Source: Acidisarcina sp.
Lineage (GTDB): Bacteria > Acidobacteriota > Terriglobia > Terriglobales > Acidobacteriaceae
Direction: 5' to 3'
Assembly: GCA_035539175.1 (NCBI GenBank)
Contig: DATLIY010000009.1
Location: forward strand, 1 to 64,000
Length of the DNA: 64,000 nt
The position numbers were made by a program, and so were the translations under genes. The notes below the pieces were generated by a model. The model was not told the DNA's origin. It saw nothing but the letters and a program-made list of their open reading frames with translations, and searched no databases. Positions 29,784 to 50,472 of this stretch are shown here, one piece after another. The stretch's first letter is position 1. Every line of letters starts with the position of its first letter.

Positions 29784-31004
29784 TTATCTCTGAGGCGTAT
29801 CCGCGTCGAGACGGTAGAGCCCGCTGCCGTGGCTGTCCGGGGTAGCCTTCCCCGCGGACGAAGATGCATCCGCACCCGCTGGCTGGCTCAGTCGCACGAA
29901 GGCAGCACGAGTCTCCTCCGCTTCTTTCTTTCGTCCGACCTTTGCATAGGCCCGTGCCAGCGAAAAATAAAAACGCGGCTCAATGGGCACCATGGCTTTT
30001 GCGGTCTCAAGCTCCGGGATCGCCGAGGCAGCATCGCCACTATCCAGATATAGCAATCCCAGCAAATAGTGTGCGAAGGGAAAGTCGGGCGCAAGCCTTA
30101 CTGCCTCGCGTGCATAGGGAATGCCCGTCGCAGAATCGGTCCGATAGTGGATAGCCGCGATCTGCAAGCGTGCACGCACGTGGTTCGGCTGAAGCTTCAG
30201 TTCCTCTGCAAATTGCGGAAGCGCTTCATCGGGTTCCTGAATCGTCAGCAGAAACCGGCCATAAGCATAGTGGATGTTAGGAAACGCAGGCGTGGCCTCT
30301 ACCGCTTCTTTGTAGAGTTTCTTAGCCGTGTCATGCGTTTCCCGGGAGTCCATAGCTTCTGCATGTCCAACTCGCACCACAACCGCGCGCTCCGTCGAGC
30401 CAGCAGGCGGAAGCTCGGAGGGCTTCATCAGCAGGACGCACATTCCGTAAGCCAGATCGATGTCCTCACTGCTCACTCCCAGCTTTGAGAGACGGTGCAG
30501 AGATTCGATGGCGGATTCATACTTCGCCTTGTGAACCAGGATCATGCTCTCGTGATACATCAAGACGTGCCATAGCTTGGGATCATCCTGAATGCCGATC
30601 TTCCTGGCCTGCTGAAAATGACGTTGCGCGTTGTCCAGGTCTCCCAATTCGTATTGGCACAACCCAAGCATCAGTTGGGCCGTACCACTCTGCGGGCTAA
30701 GCACAAGCAGGCGCTGAAATGCCTTCGCAGCCGGAGCATACTCCCCGCGATCATAGTAGAGGGTTGCAAGCGACCACCAGCCTTCCGCCCAGTTTGCCTT
30801 AAGGACAAGGGCACGCTTATACAGCCCGATCGCTTCATCAAGTTGATTGGCATCCCGCGCGGCTGCAGCTCGCGCGGAGAGAATGGCAAAACTTCCTTCG
30901 GAACGAGTTTTAGATACCTGTCCGTAACTCAGCAGCCCGCACGAGAGAATTACCACCAGTACTATCGGTTTCCTGAGCAAGATCATCCCTGGGTTCGATG
31001 TCAA
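29784..31004 (-). CDS. Exported tetratricopeptide-repeat protein (single unit)
   Basis: The 406-residue protein has a signal peptide (ends near LLSYGQ) and about nine TPR-like helical hairpins, for example AIGLYKRALVLKANWAEGWWSLATLYYDRGEY and ending FSLARAYAKVGRKKEAEETRAAFVRLS. TPRs are protein-binding scaffolds; in the periplasm or on the outer membrane it may assemble with the receptor encoded just upstream (100-base gap, same strand). The whole body resembles each half of the 704-residue TPR protein at 37065. A terminator follows. Start at 31004; an internal ATG at 30986 is an alternative. Confidence 0.85.
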   Translation of the reverse strand: MTSNPGMILLRKPIVLVVILSCGLLSYGQVSKTRSEGSFAILSARAAAARDANQLDEAIGLYKRALVLKANWAEGWWSLATLYYDRGEYAPAAKAFQRLLVLSPQSGTAQLMLGLCQYELGDLDNAQRHFQQARKIGIQDDPKLWHVLMYHESMILVHKAKYESAIESLHRLSKLGVSSEDIDLAYGMCVLLMKPSELPPAGSTERAVVVRVGHAEAMDSRETHDTAKKLYKEAVEATPAFPNIHYAYGRFLLTIQEPDEALPQFAEELKLQPNHVRARLQIAAIHYRTDSATGIPYAREAVRLAPDFPFAHYLLGLLYLDSGDAASAIPELETAKAMVPIEPRFYFSLARAYAKVGRKKEAEETRAAFVRLSQPAGADASSSAGKATPDSHGSGLYRLDADTPQR

Positions 31005-31063
31005 GGTTACGAAGCTAACACTTCACCCTCGTTCCCCGTCAGAGTAACGCGAATTTGCTGACC

Positions 31064-31092
31064 TGCGCCGGCCTTCTGATTAGGCCGGCGCA
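31064..31092. terminator. GC-rich hairpin between receptor and TPR genes
   Basis: TGCGCCGGCC (31064-31073) and GGCCGGCGCA (31083-31092) form a perfect 10-bp stem with a 9-base loop. There is no T-run, so it may attenuate or stabilise the receptor transcript and not terminate it fully, giving less TPR than receptor or the opposite. Confidence 0.45.
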
Positions 31093-31104
31093 TTCAGCGG
31101 AAAA

Positions 31105-34100
31105 TCAGAACTTGAAGTGAGCTTCAAGCTCGATCGTGCGCGAACCGAGCACCGTCGTAGCGCGCCCGAAGTGGGCATTGGTAATACCCGGATCTGGAGT
31201 CAAGAGGTTGAGTTGGTTAAAGAGGTTATACGCATTCGCGCGAATTTCGAACCGCGCGCTTTCGCCTAGAACCGGCATTCGGGGTAAGCCGAATGCTTTG
31301 GTCCCGGTCGCGTCTATATCAAAGTAACGTGGTCCATTAAACGAATTACGCTGAATGCCCGGTAAGAACGGAAGAGCCGTCGGGGTTGGCGCATTTCCGT
31401 TGGGCAGCGGCCAGGAGCTGTTGTTTTGAACCACAGGAAGCTTGGTGAAGTAGACGTTGTCAGCACCCGAAGCCGAGGTTGACTTCGGAAAATTTCCGTT
31501 GCTCTTCTTGAAGGTATCTGTGCCTTGGCTGGTACCGGCGCCACCCAGATATTTGGCGGGACGCAAGTCACAGTTACCGCTGTTCGGGATAACCGCGTTA
31601 CAGGCGAGTCCCAGATACTTGGGGTTCCAGGGAAATCCGGAGTGCCAATTCAAAATGCCGCTCAAGGTCCAACCACCGAGAACCTTTTCCATCCAGCTAT
31701 GGCTGCCCCGGAAAATTACTGGCGACCATAGTCCCCACAGCTTGAACATGTTACGCACGTCATAGTCGGAAGGACCATAGTTATATCCCGGCAGGAAGGA
31801 GTAGTCGGAAATAGTAAATGGCCCGGAGCCATCATCCATGCTCTTACTCCAACGGTATTGCGCATCCACTTCATAAGTATGTGCGAACTGATGATGCATC
31901 TCCGCCATCAGCGCGTTGAAGTTCGATGCTCCAGTATTTTCGTACCAGTCAATATAGTTCAACCGGGGGTTATACATCACCTGACCTGCAAGCACATTCC
32001 CGGCATAAACCGCATTCAGATTCACCTGCAATGGAAGATGTCGTCCAAGGCTCCCTTGATATCCGAGCGTGGCTACCCATTGGTGCCCAACATCATATTG
32101 CGTCTGCAGTGAGTAGCGATAGTTGTACGTAGTGGGCAGGTTGCGAGGTATCCCCGTCACGTTGAGTGATACCCCGGAAGCCGTTGGCAAGTTAGACGAG
32201 TCAAAGGTAGTGATTAAGTTAGGATTCGCTGGAAGAGCCCCGAGTTGATACAGATTTGATGCAGTTCCATAGACTATCTGCGAACCTGTTAGTAATCCGC
32301 TTGAGGTGATGAATGGCGGATTGAAGCGCGTATTTGTCAGGATCGCGGCCTCCAGCCCCGTATAGCCCATGCCAAAGCCTCCGCGCACAACTAATTTGTT
32401 GTTAAGGCTTCCGGGACTCCAGGCAAATCCTATCTGCGGACCGAAGTTCCCCTTAGGAGCATCGACCTGGTTGCCACCGAGCTTGAATGCAATCCCAGAG
32501 AGAATGCTCGATCCAGAGCCGAGGCGCAGATTAGATAGATTCCCCTTCTTCTCGGTCAGGCCTCCAAAGTACTCCCAGCGTAAGCCAAGGTTCACGGTTA
32601 GATTTGGCTTTACCTTCCAGTCGTCTTGTACAAAGAAGTCCGCCAATGTCTGCCGTGTGTCTTTGCGGAAGGTTGACGGGATTCCCGTTCTCGGATCGAC
32701 CGTAGCACTCTCCGATGCCGGCGCATCATTAATGAAATCCCACAAGTTATTAAAGTAGTATGTGGGTTGCGCCTCCCATGTCGGCTCATCCAGATATTGA
32801 AGCTTGATCCCTTCTCCGCCAAACTTCAGGCTATGACTGCTGATAACCTTCGTTACCGTGTCTTTAAGGCTATAAGTCCACTGGTCGAAAACACTCCCGA
32901 CATTTGGACCAAATTGAGAAATGGTATTTGGATCGATACTTCCGAGGGTGCGAGCTCCGCTAAATGTCTGGAGCTTGCTCACAGGTAATCCATACGGAGT
33001 TTGAGGATTGCTCGCAATCTCATTCCATCTCCAGCCAGCAGCATCCACGCGCACTTCGTTCAACAGAGTCGGGCCAAAAGTATGGTTCCAGAGTACTGTC
33101 GTGGCATTGTTGGTCTGACTGTGATTAAAGAAGTTGGATGGCCGTGACGGGCCGTTGAAATTATGAGTGTCCTGTGGAACGTAGTAGATGCTGAAGGCTA
33201 CGAGGTCATTGGAGGTGACCTGGAAATCCAGGCGCCCATTGAACTGCTGCGAAGTTTGACTGAAAGGACTTACGGTAGCGACAAAGAACAGATCGGCTAT
33301 ACCGTCGAAGTTGGCAGGGCTCCCCGTGCCGTCGCCGCCTAGTCCTGGCTGTGAACTGCTCACGAACGAAGGATCGTGCTTACCCAGCGGGACACCTGTA
33401 AGTGGCCTGCCAAGATCAAGACCTGCCCCGGCAATAAAGTTACAAGTGAGCCCCTGTACAAGTCCAACGTCGGCGCAGGTGTGCTTGTCACCTGGGCCCT
33501 CCAGAATCTTACTGTAACTGGCACCCGCACCCTTCAGCGTCAGGTACTTCGCGGAAGTACTTCCGGATGGTCCTAACTTGTCAAAGCCCGCGGTGTCATA
33601 CCAGCCGTCGCCCGTGCTGGTGGAGCTGTTGCGGATCGTCTCATAGGAGAAAAAAGCGAAGATGTGGTCTCGCCAGATAGGCCCACCCACTGTCCCACCA
33701 ATCTGGTTAAACCTCGATGTGTTTCGTACTGGGTTGTTGTCAGGTGAATAACGCTGGAAAGCGTTCAGACCGGGTCTATCGAATTTAAAGAATGCTGTAC
33801 CGTGGAATTGATTCGTACCATTCTGCGAGATAGCTTGTATCTGCGTAGCACCGGTGCGGCCATATTGCGCATCATAACCGTTCGCAATAACCTTCATCTC
33901 CTTGATGGAGTCTTCGCTCGGAGTTACAACTGCGGCGCCGGCCCATGTCACACTATTGATGCTTACGCCATCCAGCGTGATGTTGTTCTGGTCCGTCCTG
34001 CCACCATTTCCCGATACCTGCGGTCGATTCTCTGTAGCAAATACGCCCCCGCTCGCGCCTGAACCCCCTGGCCCCTGATTGCCGGGTTGTTGTGAGGTGC

Positions 34101-34677
34101 CGCCACCCTTGCCTTGGGCACCGTCCCCGAATACGCCCGGTGCAAGCTGCACCAGTTGAAACACATCGCGCCCATAAGACGGAAGTTTGGAAATACCTTC
34201 CTGCGAAATCGTGCCGCTGATCTGTCCCGTCTCCGTATCGATCATCGGTTTGTCCGCAGCATTCACGGTTACAGTCTCGGTGGCTCCTCCCACTTCGAGC
34301 TGAACGTTCAGCGCGTTGGCCTGTTCTGCAATGATCTGGACGTTATCCTGCACCATAGTCTTGAAGCCTGCATGCGACACCGACAGCTTGTAGCTGCTGG
34401 GAGCCAACTGGTTAAAAATAAACTCTCCCCCAGTGCCGCTCGTCGCGTTCAATGTTCGATTTGTCTCTTTATCGACGAGCGAAAGCGTAGCGCCGGGAAC
34501 CACCGCTCCCTGGGTGTCCGTAACCGTCCCTTGCAAAGTGGCCTTGTATTGTCCAAATGCGCCCAAAGGCTGGAGAAATGTGAGGAGTATGAAAAGGAAG
34601 CACGATACAATCAGTGCCCCTCGTGTAAAACCGCCCCCAATGCAACACCGCGAAATTGCCACCTTAGTTTGCATCAT
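31105..34677 (-). CDS. TonB-dependent receptor with carboxypeptidase-regulatory-like domain (Oar-like)
   Basis: This 1190-residue outer-membrane receptor has a signal segment, an N-terminal carboxypeptidase-regulatory beta-sandwich (GTVTDTQGAVVPGATLSLVD, ~50-135), a plug (~140-290; LPSYGRDVFQLVQLAPGVFG and KVIANGYDAQYGRTG) and a 22-strand-type barrel ending ELEAHFKF with a terminal Phe. Such proteins import large substrates (oligosaccharides, peptides) with TonB energy. AAGGAG lies 6 bases before ATG 34677. Neighbours are a TPR gene downstream and a divergent GH39 xylosidase, pointing to xylo-oligosaccharide import. No TonB gene is in the window. Confidence 0.9.
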   Translation of the reverse strand: MMQTKVAISRCCIGGGFTRGALIVSCFLFILLTFLQPLGAFGQYKATLQGTVTDTQGAVVPGATLSLVDKETNRTLNATSGTGGEFIFNQLAPSSYKLSVSHAGFKTMVQDNVQIIAEQANALNVQLEVGGATETVTVNAADKPMIDTETGQISGTISQEGISKLPSYGRDVFQLVQLAPGVFGDGAQGKGGGTSQQPGNQGPGGSGASGGVFATENRPQVSGNGGRTDQNNITLDGVSINSVTWAGAAVVTPSEDSIKEMKVIANGYDAQYGRTGATQIQAISQNGTNQFHGTAFFKFDRPGLNAFQRYSPDNNPVRNTSRFNQIGGTVGGPIWRDHIFAFFSYETIRNSSTSTGDGWYDTAGFDKLGPSGSTSAKYLTLKGAGASYSKILEGPGDKHTCADVGLVQGLTCNFIAGAGLDLGRPLTGVPLGKHDPSFVSSSQPGLGGDGTGSPANFDGIADLFFVATVSPFSQTSQQFNGRLDFQVTSNDLVAFSIYYVPQDTHNFNGPSRPSNFFNHSQTNNATTVLWNHTFGPTLLNEVRVDAAGWRWNEIASNPQTPYGLPVSKLQTFSGARTLGSIDPNTISQFGPNVGSVFDQWTYSLKDTVTKVISSHSLKFGGEGIKLQYLDEPTWEAQPTYYFNNLWDFINDAPASESATVDPRTGIPSTFRKDTRQTLADFFVQDDWKVKPNLTVNLGLRWEYFGGLTEKKGNLSNLRLGSGSSILSGIAFKLGGNQVDAPKGNFGPQIGFAWSPGSLNNKLVVRGGFGMGYTGLEAAILTNTRFNPPFITSSGLLTGSQIVYGTASNLYQLGALPANPNLITTFDSSNLPTASGVSLNVTGIPRNLPTTYNYRYSLQTQYDVGHQWVATLGYQGSLGRHLPLQVNLNAVYAGNVLAGQVMYNPRLNYIDWYENTGASNFNALMAEMHHQFAHTYEVDAQYRWSKSMDDGSGPFTISDYSFLPGYNYGPSDYDVRNMFKLWGLWSPVIFRGSHSWMEKVLGGWTLSGILNWHSGFPWNPKYLGLACNAVIPNSGNCDLRPAKYLGGAGTSQGTDTFKKSNGNFPKSTSASGADNVYFTKLPVVQNNSSWPLPNGNAPTPTALPFLPGIQRNSFNGPRYFDIDATGTKAFGLPRMPVLGESARFEIRANAYNLFNQLNLLTPDPGITNAHFGRATTVLGSRTIELEAHFKF

Positions 34678-35075
34678 CCTAGGCTCCTTAGAACGCGACC
34701 TCTCAAGCTATTGAGCTGACAGGCTTATGTCACTTCCACCTCTGTCTCTCTGGTCTTTAATATCTGCATCCCATGAGAATCAAGTTCCCATCCTGCCTCG
34801 CTTGTGTACTGCCTTAAATCGTTTGTTGTCAAATCCCTATGTTCAGGGGATTTCAAATATTCCCTACCGGACCAAATCCAGAATTTGACGAAGCTAGTAC
34901 CGAACGAATGACCCTTAAAAACTGTGTGATTTAGAGGCCCAAACCAACTAAAGGTTGCTGCTTTGTTTATCTTGCCTTCTTGACGAATTTCGGCATCATG
35001 GTCAAGAGTATGGATGCCGCATGTAACGCAAATTTCCGTTTATAGGGCTGTTACTCCGAGCAGGGAGGGATTTCA
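34678..35075. promoter_or_regulatory. Divergent control region of receptor and GH39 genes
   Basis: This 398-base region must hold promoters for both genes. AAATCCC (34831-34837) and GGGATTT (34847-34853) form an inverted repeat with a 9-base loop, beside a minus-strand TTGACA at 34832-34827 that may be the receptor -35. CTTGAC and GTCAAG near 34977-35006 form a second, wider inverted repeat. I found no TGTAAnCGnTTACA site here, so a different regulator is likely. Confidence 0.4.
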
Positions 35076-36599
35076 ATGCAGCGAAAAAGGAAGCTGACCT
35101 GGTTCACGCTGAGTCTGGGAATCGCAATAGCATGCATCCTTCCGGTGGCCATCTGCGGTCAGGCTGTTGAAACCATACAGATCGACGCAAAGGCGCGGAC
35201 AACCCCCTTTCCTCACTTCTGGGAGCAGATGTTCGGCTCCGGTCGCGCCAATCTCTCCTTGCGGGAGAGCTATCGGGATGACTTGCGTGCCGTGAAACAA
35301 ATCACCGACTTCCGATATGTTCGTTTCCACGCTATTCTTCACGATGAAAATGGCGTCTACAACGAAGACGAGCACGGCAATCCCATGTACAACTTCGCGT
35401 ATGTCGATCAGATTTACGACGGGCTGTTGAAGAATGGAGTGCGACCGGTAGTTGAGATCAGCTTCATGCCTAAGAAGCTTGCCTTTAATCCGGATGCGCT
35501 CCACCCTTTCTGGTACAAGCAGAACGTCTCTCCTCCCAAGAGCTGGGAACGATGGGATGCATTGATGACTGAGTTCGCAAAGCATCTGGTGAACCGCTAT
35601 GGCATCGAAGAAGTCTCGCAGTGGTACTTCGAAGTGTGGAATGAACCCAACATCGATTTCTGGGGAGGCTGGCCGCAACAGAAATCGTACTTCGATCTCT
35701 ACGCGCATACCGCCAATGCGGTGAAAGCAGTCAATCCGAGACTCCGAGTTGGTGGCCCCGCAACCGCAGCCGCAGCATGGATTCCGGAGTTCCTGAAGTT
35801 TGCTGCCAGCAAGCACGTTCCGGTCGACTTTGTATCTACCCATGGATATGGAGACGACACAGTGCAGGATCTGTTTGGCACGGACGAAAACATTCCTGTC
35901 GACGATCGCGTCGGTGGAGCGGTGGCCAAGGTCAGAAAGCAGATTGACGCTTCCCCATTTCCTCATCTGCCTCTGCTCTGGACCGAATGGAATGTTCCTG
36001 GACTAATGGAGTCACGAGACACAATCTACGTTGGGCCTGCGCTGGCCAACACTGTAAGAGAGTGTGATGGCAATGTAGACATGCTCTCGTTCTGGACGTT
36101 CTCCGACGTCTTCGAGGAGGGTGGTCCTGCTTCCCGCCCATTCAGTGGCCAATTCGGCTTACGTGCTATGGGGGGCATTAACAAACCCAGCTACTATGCG
36201 TACGAATTGCTCCACCAACTCGGCAACGAACGATTGGCGAACGATTCGAAGAACGTCATCGTTACCAGACAGACAGACGGTAGCCTCGACATAGCCGCAT
36301 GGAACCTGGTCGATCCGGATAAGCAGGGTGCGGTGCACACTATGGACTTGCTCTTCCGTGGCCTGCCTGCTAACGTGCGTGCAACTCTCCAGATGGTGGA
36401 CTCCAATCACGGAAATGTTCTGAAGCAGTATGCCGCGATGGGAAAGCCTCTTATACCAACCCCATCTCAGGTGCAGCAGTTGAATCGCGAAACCTCGTTA
36501 GCTCCTCCGACACAGGTAGACCTGAAGGACGGTAAACTGCATCTGGAGCTAACTCCGAACGCTCTCGTATTGATTAAGGTTCCAGCAACTGCCCGATGA
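35076..36599 (+). CDS. Exported GH39 beta-xylosidase-like glycosidase
   Basis: The 507-residue protein has a signal peptide (ends ICGQ), a TIM barrel and a small C-terminal beta domain. The acid/base Glu lies in YFEVWNEPNIDFW near residue 189 and the nucleophile Glu in LLWTEWNVPG near 303, both diagnostic for GH39. Known members cleave beta-1,4-xylosides; alpha-L-iduronidase is the other family activity. GGGAGGGA lies about 7 bases before ATG. It overlaps nothing but is followed at 89 bases by a small Tat-exported protein gene. Confidence 0.92.
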   Translation: MQRKRKLTWFTLSLGIAIACILPVAICGQAVETIQIDAKARTTPFPHFWEQMFGSGRANLSLRESYRDDLRAVKQITDFRYVRFHAILHDENGVYNEDEHGNPMYNFAYVDQIYDGLLKNGVRPVVEISFMPKKLAFNPDALHPFWYKQNVSPPKSWERWDALMTEFAKHLVNRYGIEEVSQWYFEVWNEPNIDFWGGWPQQKSYFDLYAHTANAVKAVNPRLRVGGPATAAAAWIPEFLKFAASKHVPVDFVSTHGYGDDTVQDLFGTDENIPVDDRVGGAVAKVRKQIDASPFPHLPLLWTEWNVPGLMESRDTIYVGPALANTVRECDGNVDMLSFWTFSDVFEEGGPASRPFSGQFGLRAMGGINKPSYYAYELLHQLGNERLANDSKNVIVTRQTDGSLDIAAWNLVDPDKQGAVHTMDLLFRGLPANVRATLQMVDSNHGNVLKQYAAMGKPLIPTPSQVQQLNRETSLAPPTQVDLKDGKLHLELTPNALVLIKVPATAR

Positions 36600-36688
36600 T
36601 CCACTTGGCTGCCACAGGACCGCTGGAGCGCTTGTTCGGGTGTAACATCCTGGTTCTGGAATTCCGTTCCTGCTACGGAGGAAGGATT

Positions 36689-37057: not shown

Positions 37058-37064
37058 GGTACAT

Positions 37065-39223: not shown

Positions 39224-40942
39224 ATGAAGCAGCAGAGTACCGGGATCGCGACAGAACTCTCTCGCCGAGCCCTTCTCCGCAACCTTGGCATTCTTGCCGG
39301 CGCATCCCAGCTCCGCGCCACCCCGTTGCTCTATGCCGCGGAGGGGCCCACAATCTACACGTTTGAAGAAGTCCCGCCTTCCCTCAGCGGTATTACCTGG
39401 ACGCATACGGCGGGCAAATCATCGGAAAAATTCCTGCCGGAAACCAGCGGCGCAGGCTGCGCTTTTCTTGACTACGACAACGATGGATGGATGGACATCT
39501 ACCTCGTAAATAGCGGCAAAGCGGACTTCTATGATCCTCCGCACCCGCTAAGCAATGCGCTCTACCACAACAATCGAGATGGCACTTTTACGGATGTGAC
39601 CGCCAAGGCCGGCGTGGCTGGTGGCGGGTATGGGATGGGTGTTGCTGTCGGCGATTACGATGGAGACGGCTTTCCCGACATCTATGTAACCCAATACGGT
39701 CGTAACATCCTCTACCACAACAATGGAGACGGCACCTTTACCGACGTAACCGAGAAAGCAGGGTTGGCCGTTCCCGGCTGGAGTTCGAGCGCAGTCTGGT
39801 TCGATTACGACAACGATGGCAGACTCGATCTCTTCGTCTGCCAGTTTGCAGAGTTCGATCCCTCTCTCGGCTGCGGCACCGACGCCGCAGGTGTGCATCA
39901 CTACTGCATCCCACGCATCTTCAAACCTCGCCCCAGCAGTCTCTTCCATAACAATGGCGACGGTACATTCACCGATGTCAGCAAGCAAACCGGAATCGCC
40001 GGCCATCTCGGCAAGGCCTGGGGAGCAGTGGCAACTGACCTCAACAATGATGGCAACATGGACCTGTTCGTCTCCAACGATACTGTTGCGAATTTCCTGT
40101 TTCTCAACCGTGGCGACCGGTTCGAGGAGTGCGGCCTAAGTTCGAACGTAGCCTACAGCGCTGACGGACATGCTCGCTCCGGCATGGGAGTCGATTCCGC
40201 CGATGTAGATGACGATGGGTGGATGGACCTCTTCGTGGCGAACATTGACCAGGAGATCTTCGCGCTTTACAGAAACAACCACGATGAGAGTTTTGATGAC
40301 ATCGCCATGCCAATGGGCATCGGCATGGTAACGCGCTGGATGAGCGGTTGGGGACTGAAGTTCTTTGACTACGACAACGATGGCGATCTGGACCTGATCC
40401 TTGCCAATGGCTTTCCCGACGATCTGATTGATCAGAGTTCCAGCAGCGTTACGTGGAAAGAGCCGCTGCTCCTCCTGCATCGCGAAGGCAAAGCGTATAG
40501 AAACGTAAGTTCGCAGAGCGGGCCAGTGTTTGAAAAAAACTTCCCTGCTCGCGGACTCGCCATCGGCGACTTCAATAATGACGGCGGAATCGATGTGCTC
40601 ATCAGCAACAATGACAGTGCACCGCTATTGCTGCGCAATAATGTAGGACGACATAACCACTGGCTCGGCATCCGCTTGATTGGCCGCAAGTGCAATTCCG
40701 ATGCAATCGGAGCACGCGTTACCTATCAGGCCGGTGACTTGAAGCGATCCCGCATGAGAGTAGGGGGCGGAAGCTTTCTCTCGACTCATGACCCGCGAAT
40801 CGTACTGGGAATTGGCAGCCGGTCAAAACTCGACTGGCTGGAGGTAAAGTGGCCGCAACCCAGTGGCACTGTCGAGCGCTTCACGGATTTGCCGATCGAC
40901 CGGTACATCACCCTGGTAGAAGGTGCCGGCAAATGGAAGTAG
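39224..40942 (+). CDS. Tat-exported FG-GAP/VCBS repeat protein with ASPIC/UnbV domain (CRTAC1-like)
   Basis: The 572-residue protein opens with a twin-arginine signal ([11 protein letters not shown]). About seven FG-GAP/VCBS blades follow, each with calcium-binding loops of the type [17 protein letters not shown] and YDGDGFPD, predicting a beta-propeller. The C-terminal ~110 residues form an ASPIC/UnbV domain ([20 protein letters not shown] and [16 protein letters not shown]). Bacterial members are exported and their function is poorly known; adhesion or glycan binding is often suggested. It is divergent from the two-unit TPR gene. A second copy of this pairing occurs at 46214-50472. Confidence 0.9.
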
Positions 40943-40985: not shown

Positions 40986-42023
40986 CTAGCAGCTCTTCTT
41001 CGCAAAACTGGACGAAGCACGCACAATCAGTTCGGGCTCGACCACGATCTCCGGAACATATTCGGTACTCCCCTCAATTCTGTCGATGATCGTTTTGGCT
41101 GCAATCTGGCCCATGCGCTGGAGCGGCTGCCTTACCGTTGTCAGCGCCGGTTTGGAGAAGATCGAGAGTGGGACATCATCGAATCCAACCACCGAGATGT
41201 CTTCCGGCACGCGCAGGCCGGCCTCCTGGAACGCCCAGATGGCGCCGATTGCAGAAAGGTCGTTATAGGCAAAAAGTGCGGTAAAGAATTGCTTTCGGGC
41301 AAGCAGTTCCTTCGCACACGGATACCCGAGTTGCGGTGTCGCGACATCGCCCTCAATCTGTACCGTCAGCTCCGGTCGAATTCGCACTCCGAGTTCCTGG
41401 GCTACTTCACAAATCGCATTCCATCTCGTGGCGGAATCGGAACTGCATGTCTGTCCCTTCAAAAACGCGATTTCGCGGTGGCCGTTATCGAGCAAGTGCA
41501 TGAGTTCCTGCCGGACTGCAACCTTGTGGTCGATCGTTATATTCGTGACTCCCTGAATGCGATGGTGCCCGGCAATGGCCACGGTAGGCAGTGCGGGCTC
41601 CTCCTGGATCGAAGTGTCCACTGTTACAAACCCCTCAACGCCGCGCGCCAGCAACACCTGCGAATAGCTTTGCAATACTCGGGGATCGTGGCGATGCACC
41701 ACGGTAAGAAAGAAGTACTCCGTATCGCGAAGATACTCCTCGATTCCACTGATGATCGCGGAACCGTAAGGGTCGCCGATCTGTTCGACGATGACGCCGA
41801 TCGTGTAGGTACGCTGCAGCCGGAGAGAACGCGCAAAGTAGTTGGGCCGGTAATTGAATTCACGCGCTGCGTCCAATATTCGGCGCTTGGTATGTTCCGG
41901 AATAGCGCGCGCTGCGGCCGAGTCGTTCAATGCTGCGGAGATCGTGCCTGGGGTCAGGTTCAGGTGCTGAGCCAGCGTCATCAGCGTTACCCTGGGCCCG
42001 TTTGGAGACTTCCTTTTAGCCAT
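40986..42023 (-). CDS. LacI-family transcriptional regulator
   Basis: The 345-residue protein has a LacI helix-turn-helix (VTLMTLAQHLNLTPGTISAAL with hinge YRPNYFARSLR, residues ~12-68) and a periplasmic-binding-like sugar-sensing domain (TIGVIVEQIGDPYGSAIISG; ISVVGFDDVPLSIFSKPALT). It probably represses the divergently transcribed receptor gene at 42427 and perhaps neighbouring glycosidases until a sugar is bound. Whether it also binds the TGTAAnCGnTTACA operators 36 kb away cannot be told; no such site is in its own promoter region. Confidence 0.93.
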   Translation of the reverse strand: MAKRKSPNGPRVTLMTLAQHLNLTPGTISAALNDSAAARAIPEHTKRRILDAAREFNYRPNYFARSLRLQRTYTIGVIVEQIGDPYGSAIISGIEEYLRDTEYFFLTVVHRHDPRVLQSYSQVLLARGVEGFVTVDTSIQEEPALPTVAIAGHHRIQGVTNITIDHKVAVRQELMHLLDNGHREIAFLKGQTCSSDSATRWNAICEVAQELGVRIRPELTVQIEGDVATPQLGYPCAKELLARKQFFTALFAYNDLSAIGAIWAFQEAGLRVPEDISVVGFDDVPLSIFSKPALTTVRQPLQRMGQIAAKTIIDRIEGSTEYVPEIVVEPELIVRASSSFAKKSC

Positions 42024-42426: not shown

Positions 42427-45400
42427 ATGTCGAATTTCATTTCGAAATGTCAGGCAGCAGTCCCAAAATGGTTTGGGCTGCGGCTGGTGGTTGGTTCCTT
42501 CATCCTGATCGCCGTAATGCTGGCGGCCACAACATCCTTGCATGCACAGGCTTACAACGGGGCGATTGTCGGAAACGTGACAGATAGCAGCGGCGCCACG
42601 GTGCCCGGCGCAAGCGTGATGGCAGTGAATACAGGCACAAATGCCAAATACAACACTACGACCAGCGGATCAGGCAACTTCGCTATTCCCCAACTACCCA
42701 TCGGCACTTATGAGCTACATGTCAGCCAGGGAAACTTCAAGGAATCCGTCGTAAAGGGTATTGAAGTCCACGTCTCGACCAATGTTGAAGTGAATACGGT
42801 ACTTCAGGTGGGTGCCGTGACTGAAAAAGTCACCGTCCAGGCAGATGCCGTTCAGGTGCAGACCACCTCCGCAGCTGTGGGCGAGATTATCGGTGGCTCA
42901 CAGGTCCGCGAACTGCCGCTGAATGGCGAAAACTTCGTCGGACTCACCCAGCTTTCGCCTGGGGTCTCTGCGGCAGCCTCGTATGATGGCACCGGCAAGG
43001 GCCTCTCCGGTGGCGTCAACTTTTCTGTGAATGGCAACCCATATACCAACAATCTTTTCCTCGTCGATGGCGTGAATAACAACGACGTAGGCTCGAACCG
43101 GACGATCCTGGTCTACCCCGCCGTCGATACCATTGCGGAGTTCAAGATGATCCGCAACTCCTTCGGACCGGAGTATGGTCAGGCGTCCGGTGCAATCATC
43201 AGCATCAATACCAAATCCGGCGATAACCAATGGCACGGCGGAGCCTTCTACAGCGGCCGCAACAATGCGCTGGATGCCAATGATTGGGTACATAACAACG
43301 AGGGCCTTGGGAAAGGTAAGCTGCGCAAGAATGACTGGGGTTACCATGCCAGCGGACCGGTCGTAAAGGACAAGCTGTTCTTCTGGTGGAACCAGGAGTG
43401 GGATCGCGAGATTCGCGGCGGTGCCTTCGGTACCTGCGTGCCAACCGATGCAGAGTCGAAAGGTGATTTCAGCGCCTATGGCTCTGCTAAGGCAGATCAA
43501 TGCGGTGCAACCATTCCCAGCATTCCCTCTTTTGCGCAAGGGACAAATCCTTTGACGATTGCCAACCCGGATGCTGCCGGCTTATTGATCGCGCAGTTTT
43601 ATCCATCGCCTAACTTCAACTCCTCACAGCAGACGTTGACAAACAAGAATGGCTATAACTGGAGTACCTCCGTCAACAACAATCTGAAATGGAGTGAATG
43701 GAACGTGCGCGCGGACTATGACCTTACCAAGGCAAACCGCGTCACCTTCCGCTGGACGCAGGACACCTGGGACAACCCGGCGCCAAACAATGGAGCGGTC
43801 TTCTGGGGGGAGTCTTTGTACCCTACCGTTCAATCCAACTGGAGCCAGCCCTCCAAGAGTGTTATGGCGAAGCTCAGTTCCACCATCTCAAACAGCATGG
43901 TGAATGACGTCGAGTTTGGATATGGCCACAACGCGATCATCACTAGTCTGGCCGGCACCCGCAAGAATATCGTGTCGGAATTACAGACTGCCTATCCAGC
44001 TTCGTTTCCAGGCTCCATTAAGCAGAAGGATGAGTTCTTTGGCGGATGGGGCGGCTTGAACCCCTATGGTTCCTATCAGGGCAGCGCCTCTATCTGGAAT
44101 ATCGCTCCTTACAAGAACCATGAGGACCTCTATACTGTTCAGGACAACCTCTCCAAGGTACAAGGCAACCATCTCCTTAAGGTCGGCGCCTTCTTCGGTA
44201 CCAATGCAAAGGTCGAGGATAATGGAAACGGTGCGGACAGGCCGACACTTCCATCGACCATCTATTGCGACAAGGATGCGTCTGGCAACAACATCATTGG
44301 ACCTGGGCATCCTGCCTGCGCACAAACCAACAACGCACTCGCCAATATTCTTATTCCTGGCACCGGCAGCCAGCCTCAGATGTTCAACGTCAGCGAGAAC
44401 AGCATCGACGCAACTGCTTTTGTTCACTGGCACGACTTTGAGTGGTATATGGGTGACACTTGGAAGATCAGCCGCAATCTCGCTCTGGATTTCGGGTTCC
44501 GCTGGTCCTTTTATCGTGAGCCCTATGCGGGCGACAATCATTGGGCAAACTGGAGCCTCGCCAACTGGAGCGCGGATCGGGCCACGTCTAACCCGTCAGA
44601 TGCCTGCAATGGCGTTGTCATCGTGCCTGGAACAAGCCCATGCTCCGATGCGAGCAAGTTCCTCGCAAGCCTGGGTGTTAATCTGCCCCTTTCTCCAGGC
44701 ACACCGGGCAAGAACAGTGCCCTCGTGGAGCAGAACAACCACAACATTGCTCCTCGCGTCGGCATTTCGTGGGATGTCTTCGGCAACGGCAAGACTGCCC
44801 TGCGCTTTGGCGGCGGCCAGTTCTTCCAGCGCGAGTTAGTCGGCATCGACGAAGGTCTGGCCCGGACCGCTCCATTTGTCATCGGCATCAACACAAACCG
44901 GGCGCTCGATACTCCTGCACCGTTGGCAAATCCGTCCGTGTCACCCAACGCCGGGAAGAGTCCTCGCGGCGTAACTCCAAATTCCTGGCAATGGAATGCA
45001 ACCGTGGAGCAAGAGGTAGCAAGAAACACGACGCTCGAAGTCTCGTACGTCGGCAATACTGGCCTCCACCTCACCTCCATGTATGACCTGAACCCGATTC
45101 CAAGCTCTAACTGGAAGCAGGCCGCCTTTGCCAGCGGCAGCGCCCAGAACCTCTTCCGTCCAGCCTTCAACTTCGGCACGATTGGGGGGTTCGCCCGGGG
45201 AGGCCATGCGTCCTATCACTCTCTTCAGGCTATGTTCCGCTCCCAGATGGGACCCTCAAGCTTCCAGGCTGCATACACATACTCTCACTCCCTCGGCAAC
45301 GTGGAGCTTGACAACTCTTCGGGTGGCTTCAATCAGCAGGCAATTACGGATCAGAGTCATCCCGGCCTCGATAAAGGAAATACCAACATCAACCGTCCAC

Positions 45401-46137
45401 ACATCTTCGTCTTCAACGAGGTGTACTATCTGCCCAAGTTCACCAAGGAGAACAGGCTTGTGCAGAACTCCATCGGCGGATGGGAAGTGAACAGCATCTT
45501 CACCGCTGCTCATGGCAGTTCGTTGACGCTCTTCAGCAGTGGGGTCAGCGGCGCATGCACCAAGCTGGATGCCGATGGGAACTGCGTCACTGGATACTCC
45601 AGCCCCCTGACCTCGTTGATCGGCACAGGCTACAACGGAAATAACCGGCCTCTTAAGGTGCCGGGTAAAAGCTGTAACTCGGGGACCAAGGAGAACCAGA
45701 TACTCAATCCGGATGCGTTCACGCTTGTGGGGTACGTAATCGGCACAATTCCCTCGAACATTGCCAGCCGTGGGGCCTGCTACGGTGCGCCGACTACGAA
45801 TCTTGACCTGCAACTTGCAAAGAACTGGACCGTCAAAGAGCGCCTTCGCGTGAAATTCAGCATGGACTTCTTTGACATTCTGAATCATCCGAACTTCAAC
45901 AGCTCCGGTCTGGAGGGAGCCGGTATTACCTCCTCAAGCCCGGTCTACTGCGGCGGGGCCACGCCTCCGGTAAAGGGAGGCCCAGCGACCGGGCAGCCCT
46001 GCAGCCCTACAAACAACGTGATCACCTCGGCAGCTACACCTACAATGGCATCTCCCAATGGCTTTGGTTCGACACAAAGCCTGCAAACAGGGCGCTCAAA
46101 TCGTGAGCTGCAATATGCTCTTAAGTTCACGTTCTAA
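42427..46137 (+). CDS. TonB-dependent receptor with carboxypeptidase-regulatory-like domain (Oar-like)
   Basis: The 1236-residue outer-membrane receptor has a signal peptide (ends SLHAQA) and a carboxypeptidase-regulatory domain (GNVTDSSGATVPGASVMAVN, ~45-130). The plug carries LPLNGENFVGLTQLSPGV and MIRNSFGPEYGQASGA (~140-260), and the barrel ends ELQYALKFTF. GAGGAGG lies about 10 bases before ATG. The divergent LacI gene upstream and the downstream TPR and ASPIC genes on the same strand suggest one regulated uptake locus. A hairpin follows the stop. Confidence 0.92.
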   Translation: MSNFISKCQAAVPKWFGLRLVVGSFILIAVMLAATTSLHAQAYNGAIVGNVTDSSGATVPGASVMAVNTGTNAKYNTTTSGSGNFAIPQLPIGTYELHVSQGNFKESVVKGIEVHVSTNVEVNTVLQVGAVTEKVTVQADAVQVQTTSAAVGEIIGGSQVRELPLNGENFVGLTQLSPGVSAAASYDGTGKGLSGGVNFSVNGNPYTNNLFLVDGVNNNDVGSNRTILVYPAVDTIAEFKMIRNSFGPEYGQASGAIISINTKSGDNQWHGGAFYSGRNNALDANDWVHNNEGLGKGKLRKNDWGYHASGPVVKDKLFFWWNQEWDREIRGGAFGTCVPTDAESKGDFSAYGSAKADQCGATIPSIPSFAQGTNPLTIANPDAAGLLIAQFYPSPNFNSSQQTLTNKNGYNWSTSVNNNLKWSEWNVRADYDLTKANRVTFRWTQDTWDNPAPNNGAVFWGESLYPTVQSNWSQPSKSVMAKLSSTISNSMVNDVEFGYGHNAIITSLAGTRKNIVSELQTAYPASFPGSIKQKDEFFGGWGGLNPYGSYQGSASIWNIAPYKNHEDLYTVQDNLSKVQGNHLLKVGAFFGTNAKVEDNGNGADRPTLPSTIYCDKDASGNNIIGPGHPACAQTNNALANILIPGTGSQPQMFNVSENSIDATAFVHWHDFEWYMGDTWKISRNLALDFGFRWSFYREPYAGDNHWANWSLANWSADRATSNPSDACNGVVIVPGTSPCSDASKFLASLGVNLPLSPGTPGKNSALVEQNNHNIAPRVGISWDVFGNGKTALRFGGGQFFQRELVGIDEGLARTAPFVIGINTNRALDTPAPLANPSVSPNAGKSPRGVTPNSWQWNATVEQEVARNTTLEVSYVGNTGLHLTSMYDLNPIPSSNWKQAAFASGSAQNLFRPAFNFGTIGGFARGGHASYHSLQAMFRSQMGPSSFQAAYTYSHSLGNVELDNSSGGFNQQAITDQSHPGLDKGNTNINRPHIFVFNEVYYLPKFTKENRLVQNSIGGWEVNSIFTAAHGSSLTLFSSGVSGACTKLDADGNCVTGYSSPLTSLIGTGYNGNNRPLKVPGKSCNSGTKENQILNPDAFTLVGYVIGTIPSNIASRGACYGAPTTNLDLQLAKNWTVKERLRVKFSMDFFDILNHPNFNSSGLEGAGITSSSPVYCGGATPPVKGGPATGQPCSPTNNVITSAATPTMASPNGFGSTQSLQTGRSNRELQYALKFTF

Positions 46138-46178
46138 CCCAGCTCTCTCTGGGTCAGGGACCTAACCTGTTACCTGCG

Positions 46179-46214
46179 CAAGCGGCGAATCTTTTCATAG
46201 AGCTTCGCCGCTTG
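46179..46214 (+). terminator. Hairpin after the receptor gene, overlapping the next gene's annotated start
   Basis: CAAGCGGCGAA (46179-46189) and TTCGCCGCTTG (46204-46214) form a perfect 11-bp stem with a 14-base loop, followed by TGCTTTCT. A second small hairpin, CCCAG/CTGGG, lies just after the stop codon. Probably a terminator or attenuator between receptor and TPR genes. Confidence 0.6.
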
Positions 46215-48670
46215 TGCTTTCTGTAAAATCAGTCCAATCTGCTGACGTGGCTTACCTATCAAAATCCGTCGTCGGGCTCACCCCACTTCGAGCTCTGCGA
46301 TTCACTATCTCCTTTTTCTCGATTGCCACCTGCTTCTCATGCAGCGTAATTGGCACCGTTCGCGCACAAACCTCTTCTCATACCCACACTTCCCCCCGCC
46401 ACGCCGAGACCAAGCCCAAGGCGGATTCCTCCGAACTCACATCCCGCATCTCCGCAGCGAACGCTGCACGGGAGTCTGGAGATCTCGCCGTCGTTGCCTT
46501 GGCAAATCAACGCCTCATCGCCGCTGGCCTCCGAGAAGTGGCCGAGCTGAGGATGGTCGAGTCAGCATATCCGCAAGCCGTGGACCTCTATCGCAGGTCT
46601 CTCGAATACGAGGATTCCGCGGAGATACGCACCGATCTTGCCTTTGCCGAACTGCGCGCCGGCCGCTTCGACGAGGCGATTGCTCAAGCAGAAAAGGCAC
46701 GCAAGGATTACCCATCCGTCTCCTCTTCACAAGGTACGCGGATCGATCAGGTGCTCGCGCATGCGTTCATGGAGAAAGCCGACTACGCACACGCCGCAGA
46801 GAGCTTCTTGCGACTCACGGCTTCTCAGCCCGATATACCCACGCTTTATTCACTGTCCATCTGCCTGCTTGGAACCAGGAAGCCTGAAGATAAACAGCAT
46901 GCTGCAGAGATCTTCGGCCAGATGCACAAGATGGCGGGCGACAGCGGATCGCTGCATGTCCTCTTCGGACGCGCCTACCGTGATGCGGAAGACATGCCAG
47001 CGGCCATCCGGGAATTTCAGCGTGCGATTGAAATCGATCCCACCACTCCTCACGCACACTACTTCCTCGGCCTTGCGCGACTCTCGCTGAATGAATGGAA
47101 GCCTACGGCAGAAGCAGAGTCCGAGATGAAAAGCGAGATCCACAACTACCCCCGCGACTATCTCGCAAACTACATGCTGGGTTTTCTTCTTTCCGCAGAG
47201 CGCCGTTATCAGGAATCCGACAGATATATGGAGGCCGCAGCCGATATAAACCCGACAGCTCCCGAGCCGCCCCTGTACATGGGACTCAACGCCTATGCAC
47301 AAGACGACGCGAAACGTGCTGAAGAAATGCTCCGCAAAGCCATCATCCTGACGGGCAACGATGACGCCAGATCGAACTATCAGATTCGCCGCGCGTACGT
47401 GGATCTGGGGCGCATCCTATCCACCTCTGGCCGCAAAGGTGAGGCAGAAGCATTCCTGACCAAGGCACGCGAACTCCAAAACAAAACGATGGAGCAGAGC
47501 CAGCAAAGCATCGCATCCATGGCGATGGCAGGAGGAGGCGGCATGGCAGCCGCTATAGTCCCGCTCAGTTCCCGCCAGGAAAACGAAGCCGCGCCAGCGC
47601 TGCAGCCCGGTGCTGAGTTCGCCAGGCCAGACGCCGCATCGCTCGCAAATACCCGGCTGACTCCCGCACAGCGCGATGCGGTCGATACCCGCGAGAATGA
47701 TCTGCGCTCTGTGCTCGGACTGGCATTCAGCGACCTCGCTACCTCCGAAGCGCTTCGTCGGAACTATGCAGCGGCCTTGAGCCATTATCAGCAGGCCGAA
47801 CAATGGGACGCTTCCGTTCCCGCGCTGGACAAGAATCTGGGCCAATCCGCCTTTCGTAGCGGCGACTATGCGGAAGCGATACGCGGATTATCGAAGGCGC
47901 TTCTATCTGCGCCGGACTCAGCCCCGCTGCGCGCCATGCTCGGCATGTCTTACTTTGCCACGGACAAATATGCAGATGCTGCGAAGACCTTCGCCCCGCT
48001 CGGTGTAAGCGGAATGACCGATGGCGAGACCGGGTATGCCTGGGCCGCTTCGCTTGCTCACCTCGGAGACATGAAGAAAGCGGCGGATGTGCTCAACGAA
48101 TTTCAGTCCTCGCCGCGGCCCAACGACGTTCTGTTGTTGGCAGGTCAACTCTGGACGGAGATTGGAGATTACTCCCGCGCCATTGCAACCTTCTCCCAGG
48201 TTCTTCAGTCCAATCCTTCGCAACCCAGGGCGCACTTTGACGCAGGCCTTGCCTACATCCGGTGGGAACATTGGCCGGAAGCTGCACAGGAATTTCAGAA
48301 GGAACTGGCGCTCTACCCCGGATCGCCAGACCCGCAATATCATCTCGGCTTTGTCTATCTGCAGCAGGCGAAGGTTGCGGAAGCCGCGGACCTTTTCCAG
48401 CAAGTCGTAACCAATCATCCAGACTATGCGAATGCACAATACGAACTCGGCAAGATCCTGTTGGATCGCGGACAAACAGCAGATGCAGTCACACATCTGG
48501 AACTAGCGGCTCATCTCAGCCCTCAGGCCGATTACCTCCACTACCAGTTGCAGGCCGCCTATCGCAAACAAGGCCGCACTGCCGAAGCCAACCGCGAACT
48601 CGACATCTACAAAGAACTCAAAGCAAAATCACGGGAACGCGCTGCACAAGCGACAAAACAGAATCACTAA
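46214..48670 (+). CDS. Large exported tetratricopeptide-repeat protein
   Basis: The ~818-residue protein has a hydrophobic export segment (ALRFTISFFSIATCFSCSVIG, ending VRAQ) and more than fifteen TPR-like hairpins in two blocks split by a low-complexity linker (MAMAGGGGMAAAIVPLSSR, near 440). Examples are AIREFQRAIEIDPTTPHAHYFLGLARL and AIATFSQVLQSNPSQPRAHFDAGLAYI. The frame opens at GTG 46214, but this base lies in a hairpin arm and lacks a Shine-Dalgarno; GTG 46247 is an equally good start. It is followed after 17 bases by an FG-GAP/ASPIC gene, repeating the pairing at 37-41 kb. Likely an envelope scaffold. Confidence 0.87.
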   Translation: MLSVKSVQSADVAYLSKSVVGLTPLRALRFTISFFSIATCFSCSVIGTVRAQTSSHTHTSPRHAETKPKADSSELTSRISAANAARESGDLAVVALANQRLIAAGLREVAELRMVESAYPQAVDLYRRSLEYEDSAEIRTDLAFAELRAGRFDEAIAQAEKARKDYPSVSSSQGTRIDQVLAHAFMEKADYAHAAESFLRLTASQPDIPTLYSLSICLLGTRKPEDKQHAAEIFGQMHKMAGDSGSLHVLFGRAYRDAEDMPAAIREFQRAIEIDPTTPHAHYFLGLARLSLNEWKPTAEAESEMKSEIHNYPRDYLANYMLGFLLSAERRYQESDRYMEAAADINPTAPEPPLYMGLNAYAQDDAKRAEEMLRKAIILTGNDDARSNYQIRRAYVDLGRILSTSGRKGEAEAFLTKARELQNKTMEQSQQSIASMAMAGGGGMAAAIVPLSSRQENEAAPALQPGAEFARPDAASLANTRLTPAQRDAVDTRENDLRSVLGLAFSDLATSEALRRNYAAALSHYQQAEQWDASVPALDKNLGQSAFRSGDYAEAIRGLSKALLSAPDSAPLRAMLGMSYFATDKYADAAKTFAPLGVSGMTDGETGYAWAASLAHLGDMKKAADVLNEFQSSPRPNDVLLLAGQLWTEIGDYSRAIATFSQVLQSNPSQPRAHFDAGLAYIRWEHWPEAAQEFQKELALYPGSPDPQYHLGFVYLQQAKVAEAADLFQQVVTNHPDYANAQYELGKILLDRGQTADAVTHLELAAHLSPQADYLHYQLQAAYRKQGRTAEANRELDIYKELKAKSRERAAQATKQNH

Positions 48671-48687
48671 CCCAGGATAGAAACCGA

Positions 48688-50472
48688 TTGAGCCGTTCAT
48701 TCATTGAGTCCTCGTTCCTCCGCTCGCTTGTGGTTGCCTGCTTAACCTGCAACATTGCTGCTGCCCAAAGCGGGCACCCCACGCCGCCGCCTCCTCCCCC
48801 GGGAGCAAAATCCACCAAGTGTAGCGGTCGTCCAATCCCTCAACTCGACGACGTCACGGCCTCCACCGGGATCACCTTCTCGCATACCTCCGATCCCTCA
48901 AAGAGGTACATCGTTGAGTCGATGAGCGGTGGCGTCCTGCTGATCGACTATGATCGCGATGGCTGGCCGGATATCTACTTCACCAATGCTCCGACGGTCG
49001 AGATGGCCACTAGGGGGGAGAAGAGCCTCGGTGTCCTCTACCACAATAATCACGACGGCACTTTTACCGATGTGACTGCAAAATCTCACCTCACTACTCC
49101 ATGCTTTGGGATGGGAGGGGCGGTGGGCGACTTCAACAACGATGGCTGGCCGGATATTTACGAAACCTGTCTCGGTGGAAACGTCTTATATCGTAACAAT
49201 GGCGATGGCACTTTTACCGATGTGACTGCCAAGGCTGGCGTGGCCGATGGACGCTGGTCTACCGGAGCCTCGTTTGGGGACTACGACGGAGACGGCTACG
49301 TTGATCTGATGGTGGTGAACTACGTGGACTTCCACCTCGACGATCTTCCTGGCTTCGGCAAGGAGCCTTTCTGCAAATATCGCGGTATCGATGTGCAGTG
49401 CGGTCCACGCGGACTGCGCGGTGCTGGCGATTCCCTCTTTCACAACAACGGAGACGGCACCTTCACTGACGTCTCCAAATCTGCGGGCGTAAACGATGCC
49501 AATGGATTTTACGGTCTCGGAGTCATCTGGGCCGACTTCAACAATACTGGCCGGCCAGATATCTACATCACCAACGACTCGACCCCCAAGTACCTCTACA
49601 AGAACGAGGGAAATGGCAAGTTCAAAGACATTGGTCTGGAATCCGGAACCGCGGTGAGCGATGACGGCTCCGAGCAAGCCTCGATGGGGATTGCTGTCGG
49701 CGATTACAACCACACCGGTCGTCCATCCCTTTTTGTCACCAACTTCTCCGATGAAAATGACGTTCTGTATCGCAACGATGGAGATTGGAACTTCAAAGAA
49801 GTTTCGTACGCCACGGGAACGGCTCTACCCTCGCTTCCCTGGGTGAAGTGGGGTACAGCCTTTGTGGATCTGGATAACGATGGATGGCTTGATCTCATCG
49901 CCGTCAGCGGCCACGTGTATCCCCAGGTTGATTCGTTGCCCTCCGGCGGCGGATATCGCGAACCCAAGCTGCTGCACCTGAATCAGAAGGACGGAATGTT
50001 CTGCGATGCAAGCGATTTGGCGGGGCTCGCCCTCAAGCAACGCCGCGTCTCCCGTGGCCTCGCGGTCGGCGACCTATGGAACGATGGCAACATGGATGTG
50101 GTTGTCAGCGATATCGATGGAACCCCGATGATTCTCCGCAATCGCGGAATCCCGGGTCGCCATTGGGTGAGCTTCGAGCTTGCCGGGACGAAAAGCAATC
50201 GACTCGCTCTCAATGCACGAATCAGCATCGTCGCCGGAGGGATGACGCAGACTGAGGAGATCCACAGCGGGGGCAGCTATCTTTCGCAAAACGATCTGCG
50301 CGTACACTTCGGACTTGGCCCGGCTGACAAAATCCAAAGCGTCACGATTCATTGGCCCTCGGGAAAAGTCGAAACCGTGAACGACCTTGCTGTAGATAAG
50401 TTTTACTCGGTGTTGGAGGGGCAAGGCATTGTCCCCCGCAACAAGATTCTTCCAACTCCTCAGAAGCCCTAG
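48688..50472 (+). CDS. Exported FG-GAP/VCBS repeat protein with ASPIC/UnbV domain (CRTAC1-like)
   Basis: The frame is open from 48262, inside the TPR gene, but family homology begins after a signal peptide (SSFLRSLVVACLTCNIAAAQ). I therefore start at TTG 48688, 17 bases past the TPR stop, giving 594 residues. A proline run follows the signal. The propeller blades carry Ca-binding loops such as DYDRDGWPDIYF, NNDGWPDIYE and DGDGYVDLM, and the C-terminal ASPIC/UnbV domain spans ~485-590 (HWVSFELAGTKSNRLALNA; IHSGGSYLSQNDLR). Unlike the copy at 39224 it uses a Sec-type signal. Co-transcribed with the TPR gene. Confidence 0.88.
   Translation: MSRSFIESSFLRSLVVACLTCNIAAAQSGHPTPPPPPPGAKSTKCSGRPIPQLDDVTASTGITFSHTSDPSKRYIVESMSGGVLLIDYDRDGWPDIYFTNAPTVEMATRGEKSLGVLYHNNHDGTFTDVTAKSHLTTPCFGMGGAVGDFNNDGWPDIYETCLGGNVLYRNNGDGTFTDVTAKAGVADGRWSTGASFGDYDGDGYVDLMVVNYVDFHLDDLPGFGKEPFCKYRGIDVQCGPRGLRGAGDSLFHNNGDGTFTDVSKSAGVNDANGFYGLGVIWADFNNTGRPDIYITNDSTPKYLYKNEGNGKFKDIGLESGTAVSDDGSEQASMGIAVGDYNHTGRPSLFVTNFSDENDVLYRNDGDWNFKEVSYATGTALPSLPWVKWGTAFVDLDNDGWLDLIAVSGHVYPQVDSLPSGGGYREPKLLHLNQKDGMFCDASDLAGLALKQRRVSRGLAVGDLWNDGNMDVVVSDIDGTPMILRNRGIPGRHWVSFELAGTKSNRLALNARISIVAGGMTQTEEIHSGGSYLSQNDLRVHFGLGPADKIQSVTIHWPSGKVETVNDLAVDKFYSVLEGQGIVPRNKILPTPQKP

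Follow-up and report, generated by a model that had tools for sequence, protein, structure and literature searches.

What function, if any, joins the genes of TonB-dependent receptors, exported tetratricopeptide repeat (TPR) proteins and FG-GAP/ASPIC proteins when they recur side by side? The question is raised by a locus of Acidisarcina sp. (Acidobacteriaceae; assembly GCA_035539175.1) in a stretch of 64,000 nucleotides, hereafter the window, which is the start of contig C9 (DATLIY010000009.1) of the 3.9-Mb source genome (G000). An earlier note on this DNA had taken the recurrent association of the three genes to suggest a physical complex connected by the TPR protein, with the FG-GAP/ASPIC propeller capturing substrate in parallel to SusD. 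The present analysis identifies the TPR gene as the hub of the set and the receptor-TPR pair as its recurrent unit. The TPR protein may act as a receptor-specific periplasmic scaffold at glycan-uptake loci that lack SusD, a reading to which the sequences give roughly even chances. The parts are of known kinds, and their recurrence as receptor-TPR pairs seems to be undescribed: among the papers listed in full-text searches, which did not cover subscription papers and preprints, none describes the receptor-TPR-ASPIC set. In the paralog tables of the nearest paper, on Solibacter, receptor and ASPIC genes stand in separate entries (PMC3174227).

Receptor-TPR pairs and the FG-GAP/ASPIC gene

Proximity was compared with chance in the source genome and in a complete genome of 3.7 Mb (G017), using rotations of gene positions that preserve clustering; where the length of a contig was missing, the null model used an assumed value. 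Partial rows of the receptor family PF25183 were merged by hand into ~51 places in G000 and ~60 in G017. TPR_2 rows were merged likewise into 32 and 36 frames, PF07719 catching only part of the TPR proteins (in each genome 150 candidates were scored, out of 285 and 295). In G000, a receptor is found within 3 kb for 15 of the 32 TPR genes (3.43 expected, p = 0.0002), and 9 of the 16 ASPIC matches lie within 3 kb of a TPR gene (0.76 expected, p = 0.0002). The TPR genes of this genome split cleanly, 18 being at most 5 kb from a receptor and the remaining 14 more than 9 kb away. Both links replicate in G017 (TPR-receptor, 12/36, 4.95 expected, p = 0.006; ASPIC-TPR, 4/11, 0.61 expected, p = 0.005). 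Proximity of ASPIC to the receptor, seen at 5 of 16 genes in G000 (1.72 expected, p = 0.046), is at chance in G017 (1 of 11 within 3 kb, 1.48 expected, p = 0.68). Because the two TPR links replicate and the ASPIC-receptor link does not, the TPR gene is the hub of the set. The co-location proposed in the earlier note is therefore not random for TPR-receptor and ASPIC-TPR, and the TPR gene keeps the connecting position assigned to it; as a three-way association, the proposal fails on the ASPIC-receptor side in G017.

Pairs of this kind extend through the family. A profile (A1) of 11 TPR proteins of the source genome has matches at E <= 1e-20 in 40 of the 41 family genomes. The relatives followed here are 59 listed matches at E <= 1e-65 outside the source genome, a part of all A1 matches (52 in other genera, 7 in one genome of the same genus); 58 were readable and one target was not found. 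A receptor gene lies within 3 kb of 52 of these 58 relatives of the ~400-residue TPR proteins. For 40 of them the closest receptor gene precedes the TPR gene on the same strand, at a median gap of 90 bases, and the two are presumably co-transcribed; the other arrangements are divergent (9), convergent (2) and same-strand downstream (1), and 6 genes have no receptor within 3 kb. This gene order is not built into the A1 profile. The propeller gene is no constant member, as had been supposed: it lies within 4 kb of only 23 of the 58 TPR genes, and receptor and ASPIC are both present at 20. A strict three-gene operon is likewise too narrow a unit, since receptor, TPR and ASPIC genes follow one another directly on one strand at 10 of the 58.

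Receptor and TPR protein are also co-inherited. Among 57 pairs at most 2.5 kb apart, from 20 genomes (10 pairs from the source genome), receptor distances correlate with TPR distances at r = 0.77, whereas r averages 0.11 and never exceeds 0.296 in 2000 shuffles of partners within genomes. For the 15 pairs with an ASPIC gene, ASPIC distances correlate at 0.73 with those of the TPR protein (p = 0.006) and at 0.78 with those of the receptor (p = 0.007), again within genomes. The correlation indicates that receptor-TPR pairs stay together, which falls short of demonstrating binding.

Many of the PF25183 places in both genomes have no TPR gene nearby. As judged by eye, several TPR-less receptors of G000 have an export-signal-bearing frame directly downstream. 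In one receptor gene (G000:C8:32296-35030) the match falls into two overlapping parts, of which one contains an internal TGA, and the gene is possibly broken. A single origin of the TPR-bearing receptors is unsupported: the TPR label changes 8 times on the receptor tree, at least 7 of these changes being forced by well-supported branches. Shuffled labels change 10.7 times on average, and 9 of 500 shuffles are equally low.

Centred on the ASPIC gene, 78 of 80 loci sampled by means of an ASPIC alignment are readable (2 have no callable ASPIC gene). A TPR gene lies within 3 kb in 40, a receptor within 5 kb in 33, and both are present in 20. Successive 2-kb bins away from the ASPIC gene hold 47, 6, 10, 8 and 4 TPR genes, from flanks that number 136, 113, 102, 89 and 79. 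At 40 loci a TPR gene occurs within 2 kb, and the nearest one is most often upstream on the same strand (22), otherwise downstream on the same strand (10) or on the opposite strand (8); 6 same-strand TPR-ASPIC junctions overlap by 4 bases, and 38 of the 78 loci have no TPR gene within 2 kb. Where 5-kb flanks are available on both sides (38 loci), receptor and TPR gene occur together in 15, against 12.2 expected if independent, so that the two are nearly independent neighbours once an ASPIC gene is given. TPR and ASPIC also share single frames: a fusion of 1204 amino acids in the source genome (L001:12358-15972; G000:C1:37357-40971), and frames of 1161 and 1195 amino acids in G017 that bear both matches.

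At the level of the phylum, TPR profile matches at E <= 1e-40 occur in 52 of 119 genomes; many weaker matches are frames of at least 600 amino acids and so not of the ~400-residue type. An ASPIC gene is present at 8 of 27 new phylum loci with 1.5-kb flanks. On these short flanks, and as a first look, TPR-ASPIC seems to be the more widespread pairing, and TPR-receptor to be chiefly characteristic of the window's family. All three genes do occur within 5 kb at some ASPIC loci whose records bear the names of other groups of acidobacteria, for example L078, L087, L106, L111 and L125. A TPR gene directly precedes ASPIC in a Gemmatimonadetes record (L119) and, of two records from Poribacteria, in L110 but not in L116. 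ASPIC is present in 25 of the 60 phylum genomes searched, most abundantly in two genomes of one family (G062 and G087 of f19, with 39 and 46 matches).

Export signals, folds and sugar-enzyme neighbourhood

An export-like stretch is found in all 58 TPR proteins by a simple rule-based motif scan, a few of whose signals fall inside the mature protein; 49 have no lipobox and 9 a possible one. In the TPR protein of the window itself, the cysteine (ILSC) is ambiguous. Among 145 ASPIC frames, drawn from partly overlapping loci, 120 show an export-like signal but no lipoprotein cysteine, and 11 a possible lipobox; 23 have a twin-arginine-like motif, and 14 have no recognisable signal with the start taken. 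Gene starts are uncertain because calls are plain longest frames. The prevalence of TPR proteins without a lipobox (49 of 58) agrees better with a partner in the periplasm than with a lid on the cell surface like SusD, which these signals make less likely.

The module 1 TPR protein (29784..31004) is predicted to form a continuous superhelix of 20 helices, with helices only (pLDDT 82.6). The solved structures closest to it are TPR scaffolds (consensus TPR, OGT, BBSome and, at 1.9-2.0 Å over ~175 residues, MamA), and SusD is not among the best 50 listed matches in Foldseek or in VIA. SusD itself is described as having TPR units together with a loop-rich subdomain (PMC2954216), which the predicted structure lacks. 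The SusD family PF07980 is found in none of the 41 genomes of the family, whereas a Bacteroides control matches; other SusD-like families were not searched. No SusD family is among the Pfam matches listed for the three TPR proteins of the window. The earlier remark that SusD is missing thus holds for PF07980, while capture at the surface in the manner of SusD finds no support: most TPR and ASPIC frames have no lipoprotein cysteine, and the TPR model has no loop-rich subdomain.

For the receptor (31105..34677), all 50 listed Foldseek matches are TonB-dependent transporters (best E 2.6e-21), with 6ofr and FusA at the top. Mean pLDDT is only 56, and 21 long strands can be counted, against the ~22-stranded barrel and plug of such transporters. 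A PDB sequence search with a single receptor gives no match at 0.01; a profile of 22 receptors gives 13, including Cir and YncD, part of them to carboxypeptidase-type domains only.

The modules are sugar loci without a single substrate, in line with the carbohydrate role first assigned to them. In the source genome, neighbours of the modules and ASPIC genes belong to glycoside hydrolase (GH) families GH92, GH39, GH38, GH30 (with LacI), GH130, GH5, GH3 and GH31. They also include a GDE_C-type enzyme, an arabinofuranosidase-type protein, a nucleoside hydrolase and a SASA esterase; 6 of the 20 hand-picked neighbours match no family, and others are RNB, radical SAM and CarboxypepD_reg proteins. 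In other family genomes (98 of 141 neighbours; alignment A8), LacI is met 5 times, GH43 and GH30 4 times each, GH130, GH2 and GH28 twice each, and GH92, GH97, trehalase and rhamnosidase once each, among 25 of 120 families listed, where one protein may match several. Alignment A7 holds 87 of 88 listed neighbours (one left out) from 21 of 34 receptors. When receptors with and without a TPR gene are compared (25 families listed of 57 and of 105), the listed families lean to sugar enzymes in the TPR group, a tendency for which no statistical claim is made; GH3 (2) and GH92 (1) also occur beside receptors without a TPR gene.

Possible roles of the TPR partner

In the scaffold mechanism, an Oar-type TonB-dependent receptor with its own co-encoded exported TPR protein would import oligosaccharides through the outer membrane. 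Beneath the receptor, most likely in the periplasm, the TPR superhelix would presumably bind a part of it and would bring periplasmic partners to the receptor exit: the FG-GAP/ASPIC propeller at many loci and probably glycoside hydrolases. The TPR protein would thereby take the place of SusD as the dedicated receptor partner, but from the inner side of the membrane. A more specific version, in which a soluble superhelix binds the receptor from below, controls coupling or exit, and hands cargo to propeller and enzymes as an inside-out counterpart of SusD, is possible but doubtful.

Several points weigh against the scaffold. Genes and models alone do not show binding of the TPR protein to the receptor. 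Most of the receptor family has no TPR partner: a TPR gene lies within 2.7 kb of just 12 of the 44 long receptors of the source genome (frames cut by stretch ends excluded), and the tree requires at least 7 changes. Matches of the A1 profile favour receptor proximity, because 10 of its 11 members are themselves receptor neighbours (within 3 kb). Distances can also become correlated when whole operons are duplicated or relocated together. A receptor is present within the 1.5-kb flanks of only 4 of the 27 new phylum loci, all four in the window's family. Finally, 9 TPR proteins have a possible lipobox, although by eye mostly beside an alternative cleavage site.

The chief rival takes the TPR protein as a receptor-specific Ton coupling factor that docks the receptor to TonB/ExbBD and handles no substrate; on its own it is rather unlikely, and it is compatible with a scaffold role, so that both could hold. 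TtpC/TtpD may play such a docking part in the TonB2 system of Vibrio. TtpD2 is described as a TPR-motif protein of 425 amino acids, of similar size and repeat type, that is essential for TonB2-dependent iron uptake (PMC6957404). However, the tonB2 operon ends with ttpD2 and serves iron use, whereas the TPR genes here adjoin individual receptors and sugar enzymes (TtpD being compared by description only); those of the window adjoin receptors or an ASPIC gene and not TonB/ExbBD. The source genome does encode ExbB, ExbD, ExbD and a 290-residue TPR protein in a row (L043:4768-7613; G000:C8:429767-432612), a Ton or Tol-type motor reminiscent of TtpC/TtpD. This cluster speaks for the coupling rival, but its TPR protein has a lipobox-like N-terminus and reaches only 64 bits with the receptor-TPR profile. 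Alternatively, the genes may be co-inherited and co-regulated in shared catabolic islands without contact, TPR and ASPIC proteins acting separately in the envelope. The chance-level ASPIC-receptor proximity in G017 fits such islands, as does the near-independence of the two neighbours around ASPIC genes (15 of 38 loci). Yet the fixed receptor-TPR order, the short gap and a pair-specific correlation far above within-genome shuffles argue for more than a shared neighbourhood, and we regard this alternative as improbable. Least likely by far is that the receptors are exporters like Myxococcus Oar, with the TPR protein chaperoning their cargo, the ASPIC protein or some enzyme, in the periplasm. 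Oar is required for secretion of the protease PopC, and the window receptors share its N-terminal CarboxypepD_reg domain and TonB-dependent barrel (PMC6434023). This architecture is found in 28% of TonB-dependent transporters and dominates in Bacteroidetes (PMC6434023), so that it does not by itself point to export; an ASPIC gene is missing from the 4-kb surroundings of 35 of the 58 receptor-type TPR genes, and the term TPR occurs nowhere in the main text of that paper.

The scaffold reading places these loci close to the SusC/SusD loci of Bacteroidota, where a TonB-dependent receptor and a co-encoded partner lie beside glycoside hydrolases and a regulator. The layout of a polysaccharide utilization locus is thus present with a partner that is not SusD. 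In contrast to those loci, PF07980 is absent, the partner is predicted to be a plain TPR superhelix mostly without a lipobox, and only a minority of receptors have one. The CUT loci of Xanthomonas combine receptor, sugar enzymes and regulator without SusD; they are not known to have a dedicated TPR partner. The propeller has a counterpart in CRTAC1, an animal protein with an FG-GAP propeller and ASPIC domain, which is not known to have a TPR or receptor partner; its structure (PDB 9etn) matches the ASPIC protein 48688..50472 at 1.9e-16. The genomes at hand hold ~51 and ~60 PF25183 receptor places each, yet PF07980 occurs in none of the 41 genomes of the family. Should the inside-out version of the scaffold be true, Acidobacteria would possess another means, beside SusD, of supplying a TonB-dependent receptor with a partner of its own. 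A receptor-specific TPR partner also provides named pairs for co-expression, crosslinking and deletion, and the pair could serve as a gene marker for soil-bacterial glycan-uptake loci that searches for SusCD pairs miss.

Layout of the locus

The genes, order and gaps first claimed for this locus are confirmed by Pfam matches (Table 1), as is the interleaving of GH39 and a LacI-type regulator. With the GH92 gene as a leftward extension, the cluster spans 27.3-50.5 kb.

Table 1. Genes of the cluster in the window, with Pfam and other family matches (E values).
Feature	Coordinates	Strand	Position	Matches and signals
GH92 glycoside hydrolase	27322..29589	-	downstream of module 1	PF07971 4.1e-147; TIGR01180
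Exported TPR protein, ~400 amino acids, module 1	29784..31004	-	100 bases 3' of receptor	TPR_2 3.1e-26
TonB-dependent receptor, Oar-type (CarboxypepD_reg, plug, barrel), module 1	31105..34677	-		PF25183 5.8e-129; PF13620 1.4e-19
GH39 glycoside hydrolase	35076..36599	+		PF01229 9e-101
Protein of 153 amino acids	36596..37057	+	4-base overlap with end of GH39 frame	twin-arginine-like stretch
Exported TPR protein, 704 amino acids	37065..39179	-	divergent from ASPIC gene, gap 44 bases	TPR_2 1.5e-30
FG-GAP/ASPIC protein	39224..40942	+		FG-GAP_3 6.6e-56; UnbV_ASPIC 2.2e-15; twin-arginine-like signal
LacI-type regulator	40986..42023	-		Peripla_BP_3 2.8e-31; LacI helix-turn-helix 3e-4
TonB-dependent receptor, module 2	42427..46137	+		PF25183 8.9e-136; PF13620 1.3e-18
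Exported TPR protein, 818 amino acids, module 2	46214..48670	+	76 bases 3' of receptor	TPR_2 3.3e-37
FG-GAP/ASPIC protein	48688..50472	+	17 bases 3' of TPR gene	TTG start assumed

The claimed export agrees with a hydrophobic N-terminal stretch, seen by eye, in the 2 receptors, 3 TPR proteins and 2 ASPIC proteins. The gap between the 818-residue TPR gene and the second ASPIC gene is valid if the TTG at 48688 is the start; a longer frame from 48262 matches FG-GAP_3 at 2.4e-47 and UnbV_ASPIC at 3e-21. Part of the 818-residue protein is matched by the A1 profile at 2.4e-53. Both ASPIC proteins have FG-GAP repeats followed by the ASPIC domain, with 7 D-x-[DN]-x-DG motifs in the first and 4 in the second. 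In the LacI-type regulator the ligand domain is above the Pfam cut-off and the DNA-binding domain just under it. No Pfam or NCBIfam family matches the 153-residue protein. In NCBIfam there is no match for the receptors or ASPIC proteins, and none above cut-off among the matches listed for the TPR proteins (best 25 of 30 for the 818-residue protein). Close relatives of a window ASPIC protein occur in records named as a gp2 Acidobacteria bin (79%, best segment), an Acidobacterium sp. bin (76%) and Acidipila rosea (74%). Further along the window (50894-54541), a CarboxypepD_reg protein of 577 amino acids, without a barrel match, adjoins a GWxTD-domain protein.

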